Shown here one piece after another: positions 24,870-30,742 of a stretch of 64,000 nt of DNA (positions are counted from its first letter, which is position 1; each line of letters begins with the position of its first letter). The stretch spans positions 124,001 to 188,000 of the forward strand of contig NZ_BCNT01000007.1 of assembly GCF_001544075.1 (NCBI RefSeq). The letters are read 5' to 3'. The translations under genes were made by a program, and so were the position numbers. The notes below the pieces were generated by a model that worked only from the letters and a program-made list of their open reading frames with translations, did not search any database and was not told the origin of the DNA. Source of the stretch: Comamonas terrae (GTDB lineage Bacteria > Pseudomonadota > Gammaproteobacteria > Burkholderiales > Burkholderiaceae_C).

Positions 24870-25814
24870 TCAGGCCCCGGCCGTGGGCGCGCAAGCGCTG
24901 TCGGCCATCTCGGCTGCCTGGCGCATTCTGGCCAGTTCGCGCGCGGGCAGCGGAATCTGGCCGCTGCCCATGCGCATCAGCAGGCAGTGCAGCATTTCGG
25001 TGGACAGGCCGTGCAGCACCAGGCGATGGCCGGCCCGCAGCGTGGACAGCGGCACCAGCGGATGCTTGTTGTTGAGCATCACCAGATGCTCGGGCGAGGC
25101 CAGGATCTTGGCGCAGTAGATGGCCACGGTTTCGTCGAGCTGCAGCGAGTTGCTGGCGCGCCAGAAATCGTTGTCCGTCAGCAGCAGCTGGTAGACCGGG
25201 GTGTAGATCTCGATGGCGCTTTGCAGGTCCAGCCGGTTGAGCCTGCCGCGCGGCATGTCCTCTAGCTTCAGCTCCGGTTCGCGCACCATGGAAAAGTCGG
25301 GCTCGGGCACGGGCCGCAGTTCCTCGCCTGCGGCGCGCAGGGCCTTGTTGAGGCGGATCACGAAATTGAAGAGATTGAGGTCGTGCTTGAGGAACAGCTC
25401 GTCCTTGATGTCGTCCACGCTGGTCGGCTCGAGCGGCGTGGTCTGGACCGGCGTGGGCGCGTTGGCCGCCACGAAGGAGAGCACCTGCGAGCCCAGGTGG
25501 AAATGCCGCATGATGAGCCAGTTGGCCTCGGGCGAGACAAAGGTGTTCATGCTGAAGGCCAGCAGCCGGTGCAGCAGCCTGGAATGGGCCCAGCGGCGTG
25601 GCAGAAAGACCTTGAGCACCTGGATGAGGATGATGCTGGTGCGCGCCAGCGGCCGCAGGAACGGCAGCAGGTACTGGCGCGAGCCGCTGCTGCAGTCGCG
25701 CAGCCAGGCGGCCTTCACCGCGTCGGGCAGCGGCGTGCTCTGGTCCAGGTACAGGGCCAGCCAGGGACTGGGGTCGCGCTCGTCCCAGGGCTGCGCGGAG
25801 AAATCCTCTTTCAT
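24870..25814 (-). CDS. Protein of unknown family, last gene of lipid cluster
   Basis: A 314-residue protein that I cannot assign to a named family. It begins with an acidic, Trp/Pro-rich segment, has a hydrophobic stretch near residues 55-75 (Leu-Ala-Arg-Thr-Ser-Ile-Ile-Leu-Ile-Gln-Val) that could bind a membrane surface, then a His/Asn-containing helix (Trp-Leu-Ile-Met-Arg-His-Phe-His-Leu-Gly) and a helical C-terminal half. No nucleotide-binding or metal-binding signature is obvious. It lies 15 bp after the synthase/oxidase fusion on the same strand; a start at 25826 is also possible and would leave only 3 bp. By position it belongs to the same pathway. It might be a membrane-associated accessory or acyl-transfer protein; this is a guess. 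Confidence 0.75.
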   Translation of the reverse strand: MKEDFSAQPWDERDPSPWLALYLDQSTPLPDAVKAAWLRDCSSGSRQYLLPFLRPLARTSIILIQVLKVFLPRRWAHSRLLHRLLAFSMNTFVSPEANWLIMRHFHLGSQVLSFVAANAPTPVQTTPLEPTSVDDIKDELFLKHDLNLFNFVIRLNKALRAAGEELRPVPEPDFSMVREPELKLEDMPRGRLNRLDLQSAIEIYTPVYQLLLTDNDFWRASNSLQLDETVAIYCAKILASPEHLVMLNNKHPLVPLSTLRAGHRLVLHGLSTEMLHCLLMRMGSGQIPLPARELARMRQAAEMADSACAPTAGA

Positions 25815-25829
25815 GTCTGCTCCCATGGC

Positions 25830-27770
25830 TTAGTGCATCGCATCCGGCAGCACATGCTGGAACTGCATCAGGTACATGGCCGCCGTATTGCGTGCCGTCT
25901 GCAGGATGGCCTGCTGGGCCGTGCCTTCACTGTCCAGTTCCAGGGCCATCTGTACGGCCAGCAGCCAGCGCTCCAGATGGTTTTCGTCGTTGGCGCCGTG
26001 GTATTCGAGGAAGCGGAAGGCGTCGGGTGGCAGGGGCAGGGTGGCGCGCAGCAGCGGCAGCAGGCTGGGCACGATGCGCTGGCCCGTGCCTTCGATGATG
26101 TAGATGGCGCCCAGCAGGCCTATGGGGTTGGGGGTGGCAGCCAGGCCGTGCAGATAGGCATTGAGGGCTTCGCCGCCCGGATTGCGGCGCAGCCTGGAAA
26201 TGTCGGTCTCGGTACCGCCGGCCTTGAGGTAGTCGCTGTGCAGGATCTTGAAGTCGTTCTGCTCGTCGCTGGCATGCAGGTCGATCAGCGCGGCCAGCGC
26301 TGCATGGTCGCCGGTCAGCGAGGCCGCGCCTTCGCGCATCCACAGGCTGCCTTCGCGTACCTGGGGAATCCAGTGGCTCATCCAGCGCACGTAGTCGCCG
26401 GTCTGCAGCTGGCGCGTGCGGATGCGCTGCAGCAGCGGCGTGCGCCAGACGCGCGAGCGGTAGTCCTGCCAGATGCTGGCCAGCTCGGTCAGCAGCGGTG
26501 CCAGTGCACTGGGTGCCGTGGCCGGATCGTGCGGCGGGGCGATGGTCGAGACATCGGGCAGAGTGTCGCCAGCGATGGTTCCGGTGGCTTCGATCTTGTG
26601 AGGGAAAACGGCCTGTCTCTCCGGTGCATCGGACGTGTCAAGCTCCACTTCCCATAGCATGTAGCCGGCCGTGAAGCGGCCCGACTCGGGAATGAAGCAC
26701 AGCACCGTGTCGCCGGCCTTGAGCCGCGTGCCTTCCTTTTCCAGGAATTCGGACAGCATGATGAAGATGGATGCCGCCCCGGTGTTGCCGCGCCAGGCCA
26801 GGTTGCTCCACCAGCGCTCACGCGGGATGGCCAGCTGTGCCTTGTTGAGAAGGTCGTCCACCACGGGGATGAAGCGCTCCGAAGAGTAGTGGCACAGGAA
26901 ATGGTCGATGCCGCGCCCGGGCACCCAGCCCTTGTGGGCCAGATCCGCATATTCGTGGATGCAGACGTCGAACAGGTGTGGCAGCAGGCGGATGTCCTGG
27001 CGCAGCGCCAGCGCGCCGGCGGCTTCGGCATCGCTCCAGGCAGGAAAGTCCAGATGGCTCTTGGAACGGTCGGGCGTCATGCCCAGCTGCATGCACACCG
27101 GGTAGTCGCCCGCAAAGCTGCGCATGTGTGTCCAGCGCAGTTTCAGGCGCAGGCCACCGGCCTGGGGCAGGGCCCTGGGGCCGCCCAGCAGCAGGGCGCC
27201 CGCACCGTCGGAAAGCATCCAGCGCAGGAAATGGGCGTCGAAATCGGTGTCGTAGCCTTGTGCCGCGAAGCGCGAGCGCTTGAACAGCCGCGAAGGCATC
27301 TCGCTGGCCACCGACAGTGCCAGGCGGTGGGCGCCGCTTTCCACGGCCATGGCGGCGGCCTGCATGGCGCCCACGCTGGCGGCGCAGACGCCGTGCACGG
27401 ACAGGGTTTCCATGGGCGGAGCCGCCATCTCGCCCTGGATCATGCTGGCAAAGCCCGGCATGAGCGCATCGCCGCCCGAGGAGCCGCTGGAGAGAAAGCC
27501 GATGTCGGCCAGGGTCTTGCCTGCGCCGTCCAGCGCGGCCTGGATGGCGCTGGCGGCCATCTGCGCATTGCTGTACACGGTGTGGCCCTCGCCGTCGATG
27601 GCGTAGTGCCGGGTCTGTATGCCGTTTTCCGCAAGAATGCGGCGCTTGATGCGCTCGGAGATGCGGTTGAGCGGCGCGACGAACGCATCCATGCCGGCGT
27701 TGTCCACCGGAGCACCGGGCAGGAACATCCCGGCAGATTGCAGATACACGTTCGAATAGGCGACAGGCAT
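25830..27770 (-). CDS. Fusion: ketoacyl-ACP synthase III-like domain plus heme-oxygenase-like metal domain
   Basis: A 646-residue two-domain protein. Residues 1-380 form a thiolase-fold synthase of the FabH/OleA type with the Cys-His-Asn triad visible as Cys129 (His-Gly-Val-Cys-Ala-Ala-Ser), His294 (Leu-Cys-His-Tyr-Ser-Ser) and Asn329 (Gly-Asn-Thr-Gly-Ala-Ala-Ser). After a Pro/Thr-rich linker (about 400-425), residues 430-646 are all-helical and carry ligands expected of heme-oxygenase-like di-iron oxidases: Glu503 and His511, Glu560, and the motif His591-x3-Asp595-x2-His598. Enzymes with that fold (UndA, CADD, SznF) perform oxygen-dependent oxidations, including decarboxylation of fatty acids to alkenes. 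The fusion suggests condensation of an acyl chain followed by oxidation. The gene is 17 bp behind the desaturase gene. Confidence 0.85.
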   Translation of the reverse strand: MPVAYSNVYLQSAGMFLPGAPVDNAGMDAFVAPLNRISERIKRRILAENGIQTRHYAIDGEGHTVYSNAQMAASAIQAALDGAGKTLADIGFLSSGSSGGDALMPGFASMIQGEMAAPPMETLSVHGVCAASVGAMQAAAMAVESGAHRLALSVASEMPSRLFKRSRFAAQGYDTDFDAHFLRWMLSDGAGALLLGGPRALPQAGGLRLKLRWTHMRSFAGDYPVCMQLGMTPDRSKSHLDFPAWSDAEAAGALALRQDIRLLPHLFDVCIHEYADLAHKGWVPGRGIDHFLCHYSSERFIPVVDDLLNKAQLAIPRERWWSNLAWRGNTGAASIFIMLSEFLEKEGTRLKAGDTVLCFIPESGRFTAGYMLWEVELDTSDAPERQAVFPHKIEATGTIAGDTLPDVSTIAPPHDPATAPSALAPLLTELASIWQDYRSRVWRTPLLQRIRTRQLQTGDYVRWMSHWIPQVREGSLWMREGAASLTGDHAALAALIDLHASDEQNDFKILHSDYLKAGGTETDISRLRRNPGGEALNAYLHGLAATPNPIGLLGAIYIIEGTGQRIVPSLLPLLRATLPLPPDAFRFLEYHGANDENHLERWLLAVQMALELDSEGTAQQAILQTARNTAAMYLMQFQHVLPDAMH

Positions 27771-27787
27771 AGGCTTTCAGTTGGTTG

Positions 27788-28732
27788 TCATCGGACAGCG
27801 TCCGCAGGCATCTGCGGCCGGGTTCTGGCCGCAGGCGATATCAGACCCCATACAAACACGCGTCCCATGTAGGGCAGCAGACCTTTTTCGTTCAGGGCCG
27901 GATCCACCCGCTGGCGATACTGCTCGGCATGCAGCCGGGTCAGCTCCGACCAGTGGGCATGCGGGCATTCATGGTGCGCGGTATGCAGGCCAATATTAAA
28001 GAGCAGCGGATTGACCCAGCCTTCGAAATTGCGCGCGTAGTTCAACGCGGTACCGGGGGTATTGCGCTGTGCCCTGGTCAGCGGGCGGCCGTCGGCATGG
28101 GCGTGCTGCAGGTAATTGGTGGCCAGCAGCCAATGCAGGCCGTGCAGCTGGGGCAGGATCACGAACAGCAGGGCCTTGCGCCAGTCCAGCGCCAGAAGGA
28201 CGCCCCAGCTGCCCAGCCACAGCAGGTATTGCCCCATGCAATAGCGGAAGGCTCCGGGCCAGTGGATGCGCAGGTTGTTCAGCCAGCGCACGAACAGCGG
28301 GTACAGCACGCAGGCTGCCTGAAACGGATGGACCAGGTAGCCCCACAGGTGGTTGGTGTCGCCGCCGAACTCCGGCCGGTAGGTGCGCGCAATGTCCCGT
28401 GGGCCATGGCGGTAGCGGTGGTGATTGGCCACATGGGCGGGCCAGAACACGAAAGTCGGGTGGCCTTGCAGCAGGGTGAGCCAGTAGTCGGTGAAACGGT
28501 TGGTCCAGCGTCCCTGCCACATGCGCACATGGGTATGGTTGTGGTGGATGACGCCCACGCCCAGCGTCAGAAACAGCTCCATGCCGTACAGCAGCCAGTT
28601 GAAGCCATGCGTCCATTGCCACCACACGATGTACGGCAGCACGGCCATGTAGGCCAGGGATTGCCAGTCGCGCCAGTGGCGCAGTCGGGGCAGCAGGCGG
28701 CGGGCGGGCAAGTGGTTCGGGCGGATTGCCAT
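27788..28732 (-). CDS. Membrane fatty acid desaturase
   Basis: A 314-residue membrane-bound di-iron desaturase. Three histidine clusters of the family are seen: His-His-Asn-His-Thr-His, His-Val-Ala-Asn-His-His, and His-Thr-Ala-His-His-Glu. Hydrophobic helices surround them. The reaction is oxygen-dependent insertion of a double bond, or a related hydroxylation, in an acyl chain or lipid. The ATG follows the TGA of the preceding sterol-desaturase-type gene without any gap, which implies translational coupling. Electron donors (ferredoxin or flavodoxin) are not encoded nearby. Confidence 0.88.
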   Translation of the reverse strand: MAIRPNHLPARRLLPRLRHWRDWQSLAYMAVLPYIVWWQWTHGFNWLLYGMELFLTLGVGVIHHNHTHVRMWQGRWTNRFTDYWLTLLQGHPTFVFWPAHVANHHRYRHGPRDIARTYRPEFGGDTNHLWGYLVHPFQAACVLYPLFVRWLNNLRIHWPGAFRYCMGQYLLWLGSWGVLLALDWRKALLFVILPQLHGLHWLLATNYLQHAHADGRPLTRAQRNTPGTALNYARNFEGWVNPLLFNIGLHTAHHECPHAHWSELTRLHAEQYRQRVDPALNEKGLLPYMGRVFVWGLISPAARTRPQMPADAVR

Positions 28733-29482
28733 TCAGCGTGCGGAGCGGGCTGCCGGTACGGTGTCGGTCGTCACCTGGGTGCGCATGATCCGGTCCATGA
28801 AGGCCAGCGCAAAGCCGTAATTGCCTGCGGGGCGGGCGTGGTGCAGGTGGTGCCGGCGGCTGGCCGCGAGCGCATGGGTGTTCGAGACGTGCGGGAAGAA
28901 GTCGTAGTTGGAATGGCCGATGACGTTGAGCAGCAGGCTCAGCACGGGAACGGCAGCCAGCGACCAGAAACAGAAGTCATGCACGACCATGGGCAGCAGG
29001 ATGACGTTGCCCAGCATCAGCGCCTCGATGGGGTGGAAGCTGTAGGTGGACCAGGGCGTGGTCACCACGGAGCGGTGGTGGTCGCCGTGAAAGCGCACCA
29101 GGCTGCGCGTATGCAGCAGGCGGTGGTTGATCCAGAAATGCACGTCGTTCCAGATCATCAGCGCCACGATCTCCAGGGCGATGCGGCCGGCGCTGGCCGT
29201 GGGCGCCAGATGGGCCCAGCCCAGCTGCAGAAAGCCCCAGGGCACGATCATGCCGGTGCCGAAGATGAGCACGGAATGCAGGGATTGGCGCCATTCGCGC
29301 CGCAACTGGACCGGCTTCAGCGGCCGCGTGTCCAGTGGCCGGCCCATGCCGCGGCGGCTCAGTGCGCGCGTCAACCACGTCATTCCCAGTCCGCCGAGCA
29401 GATACAGCGCCCCGAAGAAGGCCAGGCCCAGGGCCATGACCTGCCAGGCGTTGAGTTGGACGAACCAGGTTCCGGCGTTCAT
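28733..29482 (-). CDS. Sterol desaturase/fatty acid hydroxylase superfamily protein
   Basis: A 249-residue membrane di-iron enzyme of the fatty acid hydroxylase superfamily. The histidine motifs are His-Arg-Leu-Leu-His, His-Gly-Asp-His-His and His-His-Leu-His-His, followed by Asn-Tyr-Gly-Phe-Ala and Met-Asp-Arg-Ile, near the usual C-terminal position. Several transmembrane helices flank these. It would hydroxylate or desaturate a lipid at the inner membrane. It is the first gene of the four-gene minus-strand cluster; the 129 bp upstream, to the Bug receptor stop, should contain the promoter, but no convincing -35/-10 pair was identified. Confidence 0.88.
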   Translation of the reverse strand: MNAGTWFVQLNAWQVMALGLAFFGALYLLGGLGMTWLTRALSRRGMGRPLDTRPLKPVQLRREWRQSLHSVLIFGTGMIVPWGFLQLGWAHLAPTASAGRIALEIVALMIWNDVHFWINHRLLHTRSLVRFHGDHHRSVVTTPWSTYSFHPIEALMLGNVILLPMVVHDFCFWSLAAVPVLSLLLNVIGHSNYDFFPHVSNTHALAASRRHHLHHARPAGNYGFALAFMDRIMRTQVTTDTVPAARSAR

Positions 29483-29611: not shown

Positions 29612-30604
29612 TTACTGGGCCGTGATGTGCTGCTCGCGGATGATGGTGCCCAGGGCCTTCACGTCCTGCTGGATGCGATTTTCCAGGCCTTCGGGCGAGC
29701 TGCCCACGGCCTGCCAGCCCTGGATGGCCAGCTTCTGGCGCATTTCGGGCGTGCGCACGATCTCGCTGACGGCGGCCGAGAGCTTTTCCACATGGGCCTT
29801 GGGCATGGCCTTGGGCGCGGCTACCGCATTCCAGATTTCGAGGTCGAAATTGGCGATGCCCAGGTCCTTGAGGCTGGGCAGGCCGGGGGCCAGCGGGCTG
29901 CGTGCGGCAGAGGTCACACCGATGCCATGCAGCTTGCCGGCCTGGATCTGGGCCATGGCCAGGGCCGGGGGCAGCATGGACAGCTGCAGATCGCCGCCCT
30001 GGATGCCGTTGAACACCTGCGGATAGCCGGCGTAGGGAACGTGCACGGCCTTGATGGCCGAGCGGCTCTTGAGCAGCTCCATGCCCAGGTGGCCGACGGT
30101 GCCCACGCCGGGGGAGCCATAGCTCCACTTGCTGCCGGCCTGGGCTGCGGCCTCCAGGAAAGCCTTGCCCTGCGGGGCGGAGGACGGTGCGACAAGGACC
30201 AGCGGTGCCACGCCGATCAGGCTCACGGGCTGCAAATCCTTGACAGGGTCGTAGCGCACCGTGGGATTGAGCAGCTTGGCAATGGTCATGTTGCCGTTGA
30301 TCATCACGCTGAAGGTGTAGCCGTCGGTGGCCTTGGCCACATAGTCGCCCGCGATGTTGCCGCCCGCGCCCACGCGGTTTTCCACGATGATGGTCTGGCC
30401 CAGCTTCTTTTCCAGGGGCTCGGCCAGGGCTCGGGCCGTGAGGTCGGGGGAGGAGCCGGCGGGAAAGCCGACGATCAGGTGCAGGGGCTTGTCGGGCCAG
30501 TTGTCTGCTGCCATGGCTGCAGGTGCAAGTGCACCGGTGGCCAGGGCCACGCCTGCTGCAATCAGGCCGCGGCGGAACAGGAACTGGGAGGCGGAAGAAG
30601 ACAT
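29612..30604 (-). CDS. Bug-family tripartite tricarboxylate transporter receptor
   Basis: A 330-residue periplasmic solute-binding protein of the Bug/TctC family, which is greatly expanded in Burkholderiales. It has a twin-Arg-containing signal (Phe-Arg-Arg-Gly-Leu) ending near Ala-Met-Ala-Ala, then the family motifs Trp-Pro-Asp-Lys-Pro, Val-Gly-Phe-Pro-Ala-Gly-Ser-Ser-Pro-Asp and Val-Glu-Asn-Arg-Val-Gly-Ala-Gly-Gly-Asn. Typical ligands are small carboxylates. It stands alone, without TctA/TctB membrane subunits, as is common for orphan Bug receptors. The start at 30604 begins the signal peptide; the ORF upstream of it is not credible. Confidence 0.9.
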   Translation of the reverse strand: MSSSASQFLFRRGLIAAGVALATGALAPAAMAADNWPDKPLHLIVGFPAGSSPDLTARALAEPLEKKLGQTIIVENRVGAGGNIAGDYVAKATDGYTFSVMINGNMTIAKLLNPTVRYDPVKDLQPVSLIGVAPLVLVAPSSAPQGKAFLEAAAQAGSKWSYGSPGVGTVGHLGMELLKSRSAIKAVHVPYAGYPQVFNGIQGGDLQLSMLPPALAMAQIQAGKLHGIGVTSAARSPLAPGLPSLKDLGIANFDLEIWNAVAAPKAMPKAHVEKLSAAVSEIVRTPEMRQKLAIQGWQAVGSSPEGLENRIQQDVKALGTIIREQHITAQ

Positions 30605-30668
30605 GGCGACTCTATCGGGATGCACAGAACGCCGGCCATGGATGGCGCAGCGGTCCGCAGGGGACAAT

Positions 30669-30698
30669 AAAAAACCCGGAGATTATCCGGGTTTGGGT
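30669..30698 (-). terminator. rpoH intrinsic terminator
   Basis: The stem AAACCCGGA / TCCGGGTTT with a 5-base loop is followed, in minus-strand direction, by a run of T. It lies 45-75 bases after the rpoH stop. Confidence 0.85.
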
Positions 30699-30742
30699 TT
30701 CAGCATTTCAGCCTTTTTGATCGCATATGCGCAAGATGCGGT

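Follow-up and report, generated by a model that had tools for sequence, protein, structure and literature searches.

The present study concerns a 64,000-nucleotide stretch of the Comamonas terrae genome (RefSeq assembly GCF_001544075.1, contig NZ_BCNT01000007.1, positions 124,001 to 188,000 of the forward strand), here termed the window, in which four genes on the minus strand are packed as a single unit at window positions 24870-29482 (Table 1). In the order of transcription, they encode a hydroxylase, a desaturase, a ketosynthase fused to a heme-oxygenase-like dimetal oxidase (HDO), and a protein of the DUF6999 family. The open reading frame listing places gaps of 0, 17, and 3 bp between them, the last becoming 15 bp if gene 4 begins at its second ATG, in agreement with the original prediction, which was made from the sequence alone and had described four tightly packed genes. 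A Pfam scan of the four proteins, with matches reported above the curated cut-offs, likewise bears out its description of the locus as one that combines acyl condensation with oxygen chemistry: a condensing enzyme is accompanied by several oxygen-dependent metal enzyme families, and no acyl carrier protein (ACP) or reductase was found among the four genes.

Table 1. Genes and domains of the operon, with its upstream neighbor (window positions)
Feature	Position	Strand	Basis or remark
Gene 1: FA_hydroxylase / sterol-desaturase superfamily, 249 aa	28733-29482	-	PF04116, 75.6 bits
Gene 2: FA_desaturase / AlkB-like, 314 aa	27788-28732	-	PF00487, 64.7 bits; begins at the base after the end of gene 1
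Gene 3: StlD/DarB-type ketosynthase + heme-oxygenase-like metal oxidase fusion, 646 aa	25830-27770	-	NF005293, PF14518
Gene 3, ketosynthase domain, residues 1-375	26646-27770	-	Alignment; triad Cys129-His294-Asn329; best PDB match StlD
Gene 3, HDO domain, residues ~411-638	25857-26540	-	Invariant H499, E503, D506, E560, H591, D595, H598
Gene 4: DUF6999 protein, 318 aa	24870-25826	-	PF22523, 430.4 bits
TctC (tripartite-tricarboxylate receptor) gene	29612-30667	-	

The four genes form a conserved operon, beyond what chance would produce. When 84,980 species genomes were scanned with DUF6999, 501 stretches proved to encode a relative, and in the best 80, which were kept as the closest relatives, the identical four-gene order is present in 76; these loci belong to Comamonas, Delftia, Acidovorax, Corticibacter, Variovorax, Achromobacter, Bordetella, and a few others. 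The exceptions are a contig of 3,307 bases that is too short to show more, a Corticibacter locus with the fusion and DUF6999 only within the fetched stretch, and two Variovorax loci (L087 and L090; L and G numbers are our own) with the hydroxylase and DUF6999 only, the desaturase and the fusion being paired at a separate place in both genomes (L175 and L174). Because the Variovorax operon is broken into two pairs with all four genes retained, a joint function is better supported than by adjacency alone. Across a wider set of 300 Burkholderiales genomes, DUF6999 is present in 13, and 10 of these have all four genes; in the fetched stretches of the other three, two are without the desaturase and one is without the hydroxylase. 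The control genome of that search, from the genetically tractable Caulobacter vibrioides, gave a DUF6999 match as well. Gaps are mostly short or overlapping, with the junction between the fusion and DUF6999 at -4 bp in 8 of 16 loci (script-chosen starts), and one desaturase-fusion gap reaches 153 bp. The linkage on which the original prediction had staked its reading is thus recovered: most relatives keep the genes together, and even the two split Variovorax genomes possess the full set.

The ketosynthase domain is, by sequence comparison, closest to the StlD/DarB class and not to FabH or OleA, the families to which it was first assigned. A profile built from 14 fusions and searched against the PDB matched StlD (5gk0, presumably from Photorhabdus) at 299 bits, versus 59.7 for the next synthase, FabH, and ~40 for OleA. 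StlD was also the top match in a fold search with the predicted fusion model, at ~35% identity, and OleA and FabH were among the matches as well; the best 50 of 1516 Foldseek matches are all synthases, so that they carry no information on the HDO half of the protein. All 32 StlD/DarB-type synthases compared have C129, H294, and N329, and these residues are common to FabH. Sixteen further positions, invariant in all 32 of these sequences and different in the FabH of the same genome, are kept in the window synthase. The domain matches PF08541 (ACP_syn_III_C) at 32.7 bits, above the cut-off, and PF08545 (ACP_syn_III) at 18.1 bits, below it; the best NCBIfam match of gene 3 is the StlD/DarB model NF005293, at 311 bits versus a cut-off of 450. 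This shortfall, the FabH-like Cys-His-Asn triad, the presence of OleA and FabH among the fold matches, and the precedent of fatty-acid decarboxylation by UndA (PMC13108848) would all be compatible with a linear route of the kind first suggested for this locus, in which an OleA/FabH-like Claisen condensation would be followed by HDO-mediated decarboxylation or desaturation of the beta-keto acid to an unsaturated ketone or hydrocarbon. However, neither FabH nor OleA exceeds 59.7 bits where StlD reaches 299, the positions specific to the StlD/DarB type are kept, and no OleB-, OleC-, or OleD-type family occurs among the four genes, and we consider such a route unlikely.

The second half of the fusion matches PF14518 (Haem_oxygenas_2) at 34.2 bits, above the gathering score of 28.9, and two stand-alone HDO relatives score 41.2 and 33.7 bits. 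The seven residues listed in Table 1 are invariant in 21 HDO sequences, 17 of them fused and 4 stand-alone. HDOs are characterized by the metal motif E-H-E-H-(D/E)-H (PMC11363339), and E560 together with H591-D595-H598 fit this motif at the helix-2 and helix-3 ligand places, as in UndA and other HDOs. The window protein differs from these enzymes in its fusion to a ketosynthase and in helix 1, where H499, E503, and D506 are invariant instead of the canonical Glu-His pair. The only PDB entry matched by the HDO profile with a good E-value (2e-10) is 3dde, a heme-oxygenase-like fold of unknown function whose corresponding Glu and His align to E503 and D506; no characterized HDO matched with a good E-value in this search. 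E473, present in 20 of the 21 sequences, might serve as an additional metal ligand.

Genes 1 and 2 retain the histidine-rich signatures expected from the original prediction, which had attributed a metal-ligand set to each of the first three genes; it is in the HDO helix-1 pair that this attribution departs from the canonical motif. In gene 1, His 115, 120, 124, 132, 135, 136, 190, 211, 214, and 215 are invariant in an alignment of 13 sequences, and in gene 2, His 64, 66, 68, 100, 104, 105, 210, and 254 are invariant in an alignment of 12. In its family profile and histidine-rich conserved positions gene 2 resembles the alkane monooxygenase AlkB and the membrane fatty-acid desaturases, but its match to AlkB is marginal, the sole PDB matches up to an E-value of 1 being two alkane 1-monooxygenases (6e-4 and 0.097), and the window operon is without a dedicated redox partner. 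The possibility that genes 1 and 2 are one duplicated family found no support in profile comparison (probability 0.6%).

The fourth gene, formerly left unassigned, encodes a member of DUF6999, a named family without known function (PF22523, 430.4 bits against a gathering score of 27). Its predicted model is all-helical (pLDDT 85), and H108, H148, D149, D200, D231, H272, and E277 are invariant in an alignment of 11 sequences that includes distant homologs. Fold, PDB-profile, and profile-profile searches found no relatives outside the family itself. Candidate folds were not usable (Foldseek E-values of 0.65 or higher; best VIA-align Z of 5.2 over 76 residues), and we do not call the fold new; a comparison with the HDO domain gave no support for a hidden HDO (profile-profile probability 0.8%). 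DUF6999 may be catalytic, may be a metal protein, or may serve as a membrane dock, and we favor none of these. A fragment with an internal stop, perhaps a decaying copy, is present in one alphaproteobacterium (G858, locus L148).

In three alphaproteobacterial loci (L059, L150, and L151) and three gammaproteobacterial loci (L060, L144, and L152), the synthase, the HDO, and DUF6999 are encoded by three adjacent, separate genes; in L150 and L151 the HDO, missed by a simple gene caller, was located by tblastn between the synthase and DUF6999. No desaturase or hydroxylase of the kind of genes 1 and 2 was found beside these six loci, which identifies the synthase, HDO, and DUF6999 as the core of the system. 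In Burkholderiales, the synthase and HDO are fused, and two membrane-type oxygenases accompany this core. In two gammaproteobacteria, and in no other of the 102 carrier loci, the synthase is preceded by an apparent membrane protein of 185-186 aa that has no Pfam match (L060:12440-13000 and L144:11439-11996); it may stand there instead of the membrane oxygenases. Directly after DUF6999 in L059 (6196-9597) and L151 (5677-9072), which belong to one alphaproteobacterial genus, lies a gene for a transporter-acyltransferase-AMP-ligase protein of ~1130 aa. That gene and the two membrane-type oxygenase families of the operon are what one might expect if the core made an unusual lipid, either an acyl chain or a ring, that was loaded into membrane lipids of the envelope, and if the substrates of genes 1 and 2 were membrane-bound chains. 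Such an outcome would be compatible with, and overlap, the ring-forming pathway proposed below, but the acyltransferase-AMP-ligase gene adjoins DUF6999 in only 2 of the 102 carrier loci, a third match lying 2.5 kb away (L129), and we regard the envelope as quite an unlikely destination.

Known StlD/DarB-type synthases can be accompanied by another finishing enzyme: in Azoarcus, darA, listed as a DAR-aromatase, adjoins darB (PMC3949708). We use the term DarA-like for a flavodoxin-like protein of ~300 aa encoded next to a StlD/DarB-type synthase. The label is based on position and a weak flavodoxin match, and the protein is a putative DarA. The same 300 Burkholderiales genomes were searched three times, with DUF6999, the synthase-HDO profile, and a DarA-like profile. 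A StlD/DarB-type synthase is present in 19, as a full-length HDO fusion in 13 and as a synthase only in 6. The 13 fusion genomes are exactly the 13 that carry DUF6999, and the 6 synthase-only genomes are exactly the 6 with a DarA-like protein, with zero overlap; none of the 13 fusion genomes yielded a DarA-like protein, and none of the 6 with a DarA-like protein yielded DUF6999. The genera represented number 13 for the synthase, 9 for DUF6999, and 4 for DarA-like, and because near relatives share genes by descent, the exchange comprises fewer than 19 independent events. Within Comamonas, the fusion is present in 40 of 53 genomes, and DUF6999 in exactly these 40.

The same partition is seen at the level of the locus. 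In a tblastn search of 109 loci, DarA-like sequences were found only in the 6 stand-alone-synthase loci and in none of the 103 fusion, HDO, or DUF6999 loci, the window included. They directly precede the synthase in L162-L165 and are separated from it by ~0.3-0.9 kb in L160 and L161. The genome of the window gave no match to a Streptomyces DarA-like query, a search that had no positive control; the later DarA-like profile search had 6 positive genomes. Among seven further genomes, six from other orders or classes were without a DarA-like match (one of them G858, with its DUF6999 fragment only), and no DarA-like protein was found in the five of the six genomes with three-gene loci that were searched whole. 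A member of the family of the window outside the 300-genome sample (G651) carries both systems at separate loci, a DarA-like gene directly preceding a second, stand-alone synthase on a different contig from the fusion operon, so that the exclusion operates by locus and not by genome. On plasmids, DarA-like genes were found on three only, all from Streptomyces. One Streptomyces plasmid (L145:9703-19279), in which the gene directly follows the synthase, encodes ACPs, a StlD/DarB-type synthase, the DarA-like protein, an FAD monooxygenase, a P450, and FabF/FabG. From these patterns we infer that HDO and DUF6999 replace the aromatase DarA.

Several observations weigh against this reading. In the whole-genome searches a small number of top candidates was scored in each genome (no more than 7 for DarA-like), so a divergent DarA may have escaped. 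On Prevotella and Bacteroides plasmids (L154 and L155), the synthase lies beside a regulator gene, and neither a DarA-like protein nor an HDO is annotated nearby; these two Bacteroidota loci mean that the absence of DarA is no proof of replacement. The flavodoxin match of the DarA-like proteins is at 16.9 bits, below the cut-off, in one of the two tested, the tested proteins match no NCBIfam model, and the DarA-like profile matches no PDB chain. With H499, E503, and D506 in helix 1 in place of the canonical Glu and His, an UndA-like diiron site is less than certain. In a tree of the 32 synthases, one change is enough to divide the 23 with an HDO partner from the remaining 9, and support for this split is weak (80/62). 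Finally, the 311 bits of the window synthase against the StlD/DarB model, as compared with 562-614 bits for four Burkholderiales synthases that have a DarA-like partner, suggest that substrates or outcome may differ. Two fusion relatives score 297 and 315 bits against this model, synthases with a stand-alone HDO partner score 322 and 372, and the Prevotella synthase, without either partner, scores 492; the Streptomyces synthase beside a DarA-like protein falls below the cut-off at 382, so the cut-off does not follow the partner cleanly. In the same tree the 17 fusions occupy one side of a branch with support of 100/100. The fusion synthases are thus, on sequence grounds, a separate subfamily, although the StlD/DarB score alone does not sort the partners.

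Collectively, these analyses are consistent with a model in which the operon is a variant of the dialkylresorcinol/cyclohexanedione-type pathway, with HDO and DUF6999 oxidizing the ring product in the place of DarA, a model that in our judgment could equally well prove right or wrong. The scheme is a proposal from the cyclization and its substrates to the HDO reaction, the roles of genes 1, 2, and 4, and the order of steps. The ketosynthase would take two acyl chains from central fatty-acid metabolism, since the operon encodes no ACP, and would condense and cyclize them to a 2,5-dialkylcyclohexane-1,3-dione, probably with retention of the 4-carboxyl group, as in the 4-carboxy-2,5-dialkylcyclohexane-1,3-diones that are the products of DarB (PMC5515871). 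Given that cyclic 1,3-diones are what StlD/DarB enzymes produce, we expect a dialkyl product with a ring sooner than a hydrocarbon or trimmed fatty acid; of the pathway first suggested for this locus, condensation plus oxygen chemistry is therefore kept and the hydrocarbon or trimmed chain gives way to a ring-bearing dialkyl lipid. The fused HDO, with DUF6999 as its partner, would then oxidize the dione with O2, probably acting on the ring product in DarA's stead and not trimming a chain. UndA, itself an HDO, carries out oxidative decarboxylation with olefin formation (PMC13108848), and the most economical reaction would be a similar loss of CO2 with removal of the hydrogen at C5, whose product would tautomerize to an aromatic 2,5-dialkylresorcinol in one step. 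This decarboxylative aromatization is suggested by the chemistry and by the gene exchange. The hydroxylase and the membrane desaturase/AlkB-like enzyme would modify the alkyl chains, either beforehand or afterwards.

In its most specific form, the HDO would be a new aromatase with an altered metal site, a nonhomologous replacement of DarA by which a single protein makes the dialkylresorcinol through O2-dependent decarboxylative desaturation, and DUF6999 would be a required new catalytic or metal-binding protein; this version is tentative and more apt to fail than to hold. The dione might also be hydroxylated, cleaved, or rearranged to a quinol, a tropolone-like, or a ring-opened product instead of being aromatized, a cyclic sub-case that overlaps the proposed pathway. 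Fatty and amino acids are the main substrates of the HDOs characterized so far, a family that catalyzes many different reactions (PMC13108848), the helix-1 residues of the window HDO are variant, and DUF6999 was not found in the six DarA-like genomes of the sample, so that the second step here may be more complex. Against this, the one-for-one exchange with DarA-like in the 300 genomes is most simply read as like for like, and a nonaromatizing outcome is in our view somewhat unlikely. In Acinetobacter, the predicted HDO DtpC limits oxidative damage on drying (PMC13232832), which raises the prospect of a redox-protective factor supported by the other three genes, but the fusion of the window HDO to a condensing enzyme, and its company, point to biosynthesis and make a role in stress protection highly improbable.

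The nearest same-strand gene upstream, at 129 bp, encodes a TctC receptor; downstream, a PAS-GGDEF-EAL gene converges on the operon. TctC receptors are numerous in Burkholderiales. A TctC-like gene is found within 2 kb of the synthase, in about the same position as in the window, in 22 of the 102 carrier loci (a set that includes some genomes twice); where the genus is given, these are Comamonas, Delftia, and near relatives. The upstream gene apparently reflects local synteny of the genus, or is perhaps a fifth member at genus level, and the operon occurs elsewhere without it. GGDEF-EAL matches are no more than 50 bp from the operon in 2 of the 102 loci and are present anywhere in the fetched stretch in 16. 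The GC content of the operon resembles that of its surroundings, and a promoter and terminator scan found sites only at 30276-30711 and none inside the operon or immediately ahead of it. A search of a phage collection gave no match to the fusion protein, and the sole DUF6999 match in a plasmid collection is on a Pseudoalteromonas megaplasmid, there beside a synthase and an HDO.

Among described systems, the operon most resembles the dialkylresorcinol and cyclohexanedione clusters (DarA-DarB-DarC and the corresponding part of the flexirubin and arcuflavin clusters), with which it shares a StlD/DarB-type ketosynthase, its triad and class residues, and a compact arrangement. It differs from them in the HDO fused to the synthase, in DUF6999, and in the membrane-type desaturase and hydroxylase; no DarA-like gene or ACP was found with it, and its synthase does not reach the family cut-off. 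The StlD enzyme of stilbene biosynthesis is the closest solved structure and can be aligned across the synthase domain, but it is stand-alone and has no HDO. AntiSMASH "resorcinol" regions have been reported in Delftia tsuruhatensis TR1180 (PMC8248536) and in Achromobacter mucicolens IA, the latter with DarB as the core gene (PMC9045304). Since other strains of both species carry the operon (L064 and L138), and a profile search found no DarA-like protein in the sampled Delftia tsuruhatensis genome, these published regions may be operons of the type described here. No description of the HDO fusion, of DUF6999, or of the four-gene unit was recognized in the open-licence literature, which accords with the original prediction, to which no such described system was known.

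The products of StlD/DarB synthases include signals, antibiotics, and pigment anchors. If the proposed pathway is correct, the operon would represent a second, O2-dependent way of finishing a StlD/DarB product that is built into the synthase itself, and carbocyclic diketones would join the substrates of HDOs as a class absent from the list given in the substrate passages of the HDO review (PMC13108848). The fusion operon also provides the first functional context for DUF6999. The operon probably makes a family of ring-bearing lipids not yet described, and common soil- and host-associated bacteria, including Comamonas, Delftia, Variovorax, Achromobacter, and Bordetella, would then be producers of such a lipid.

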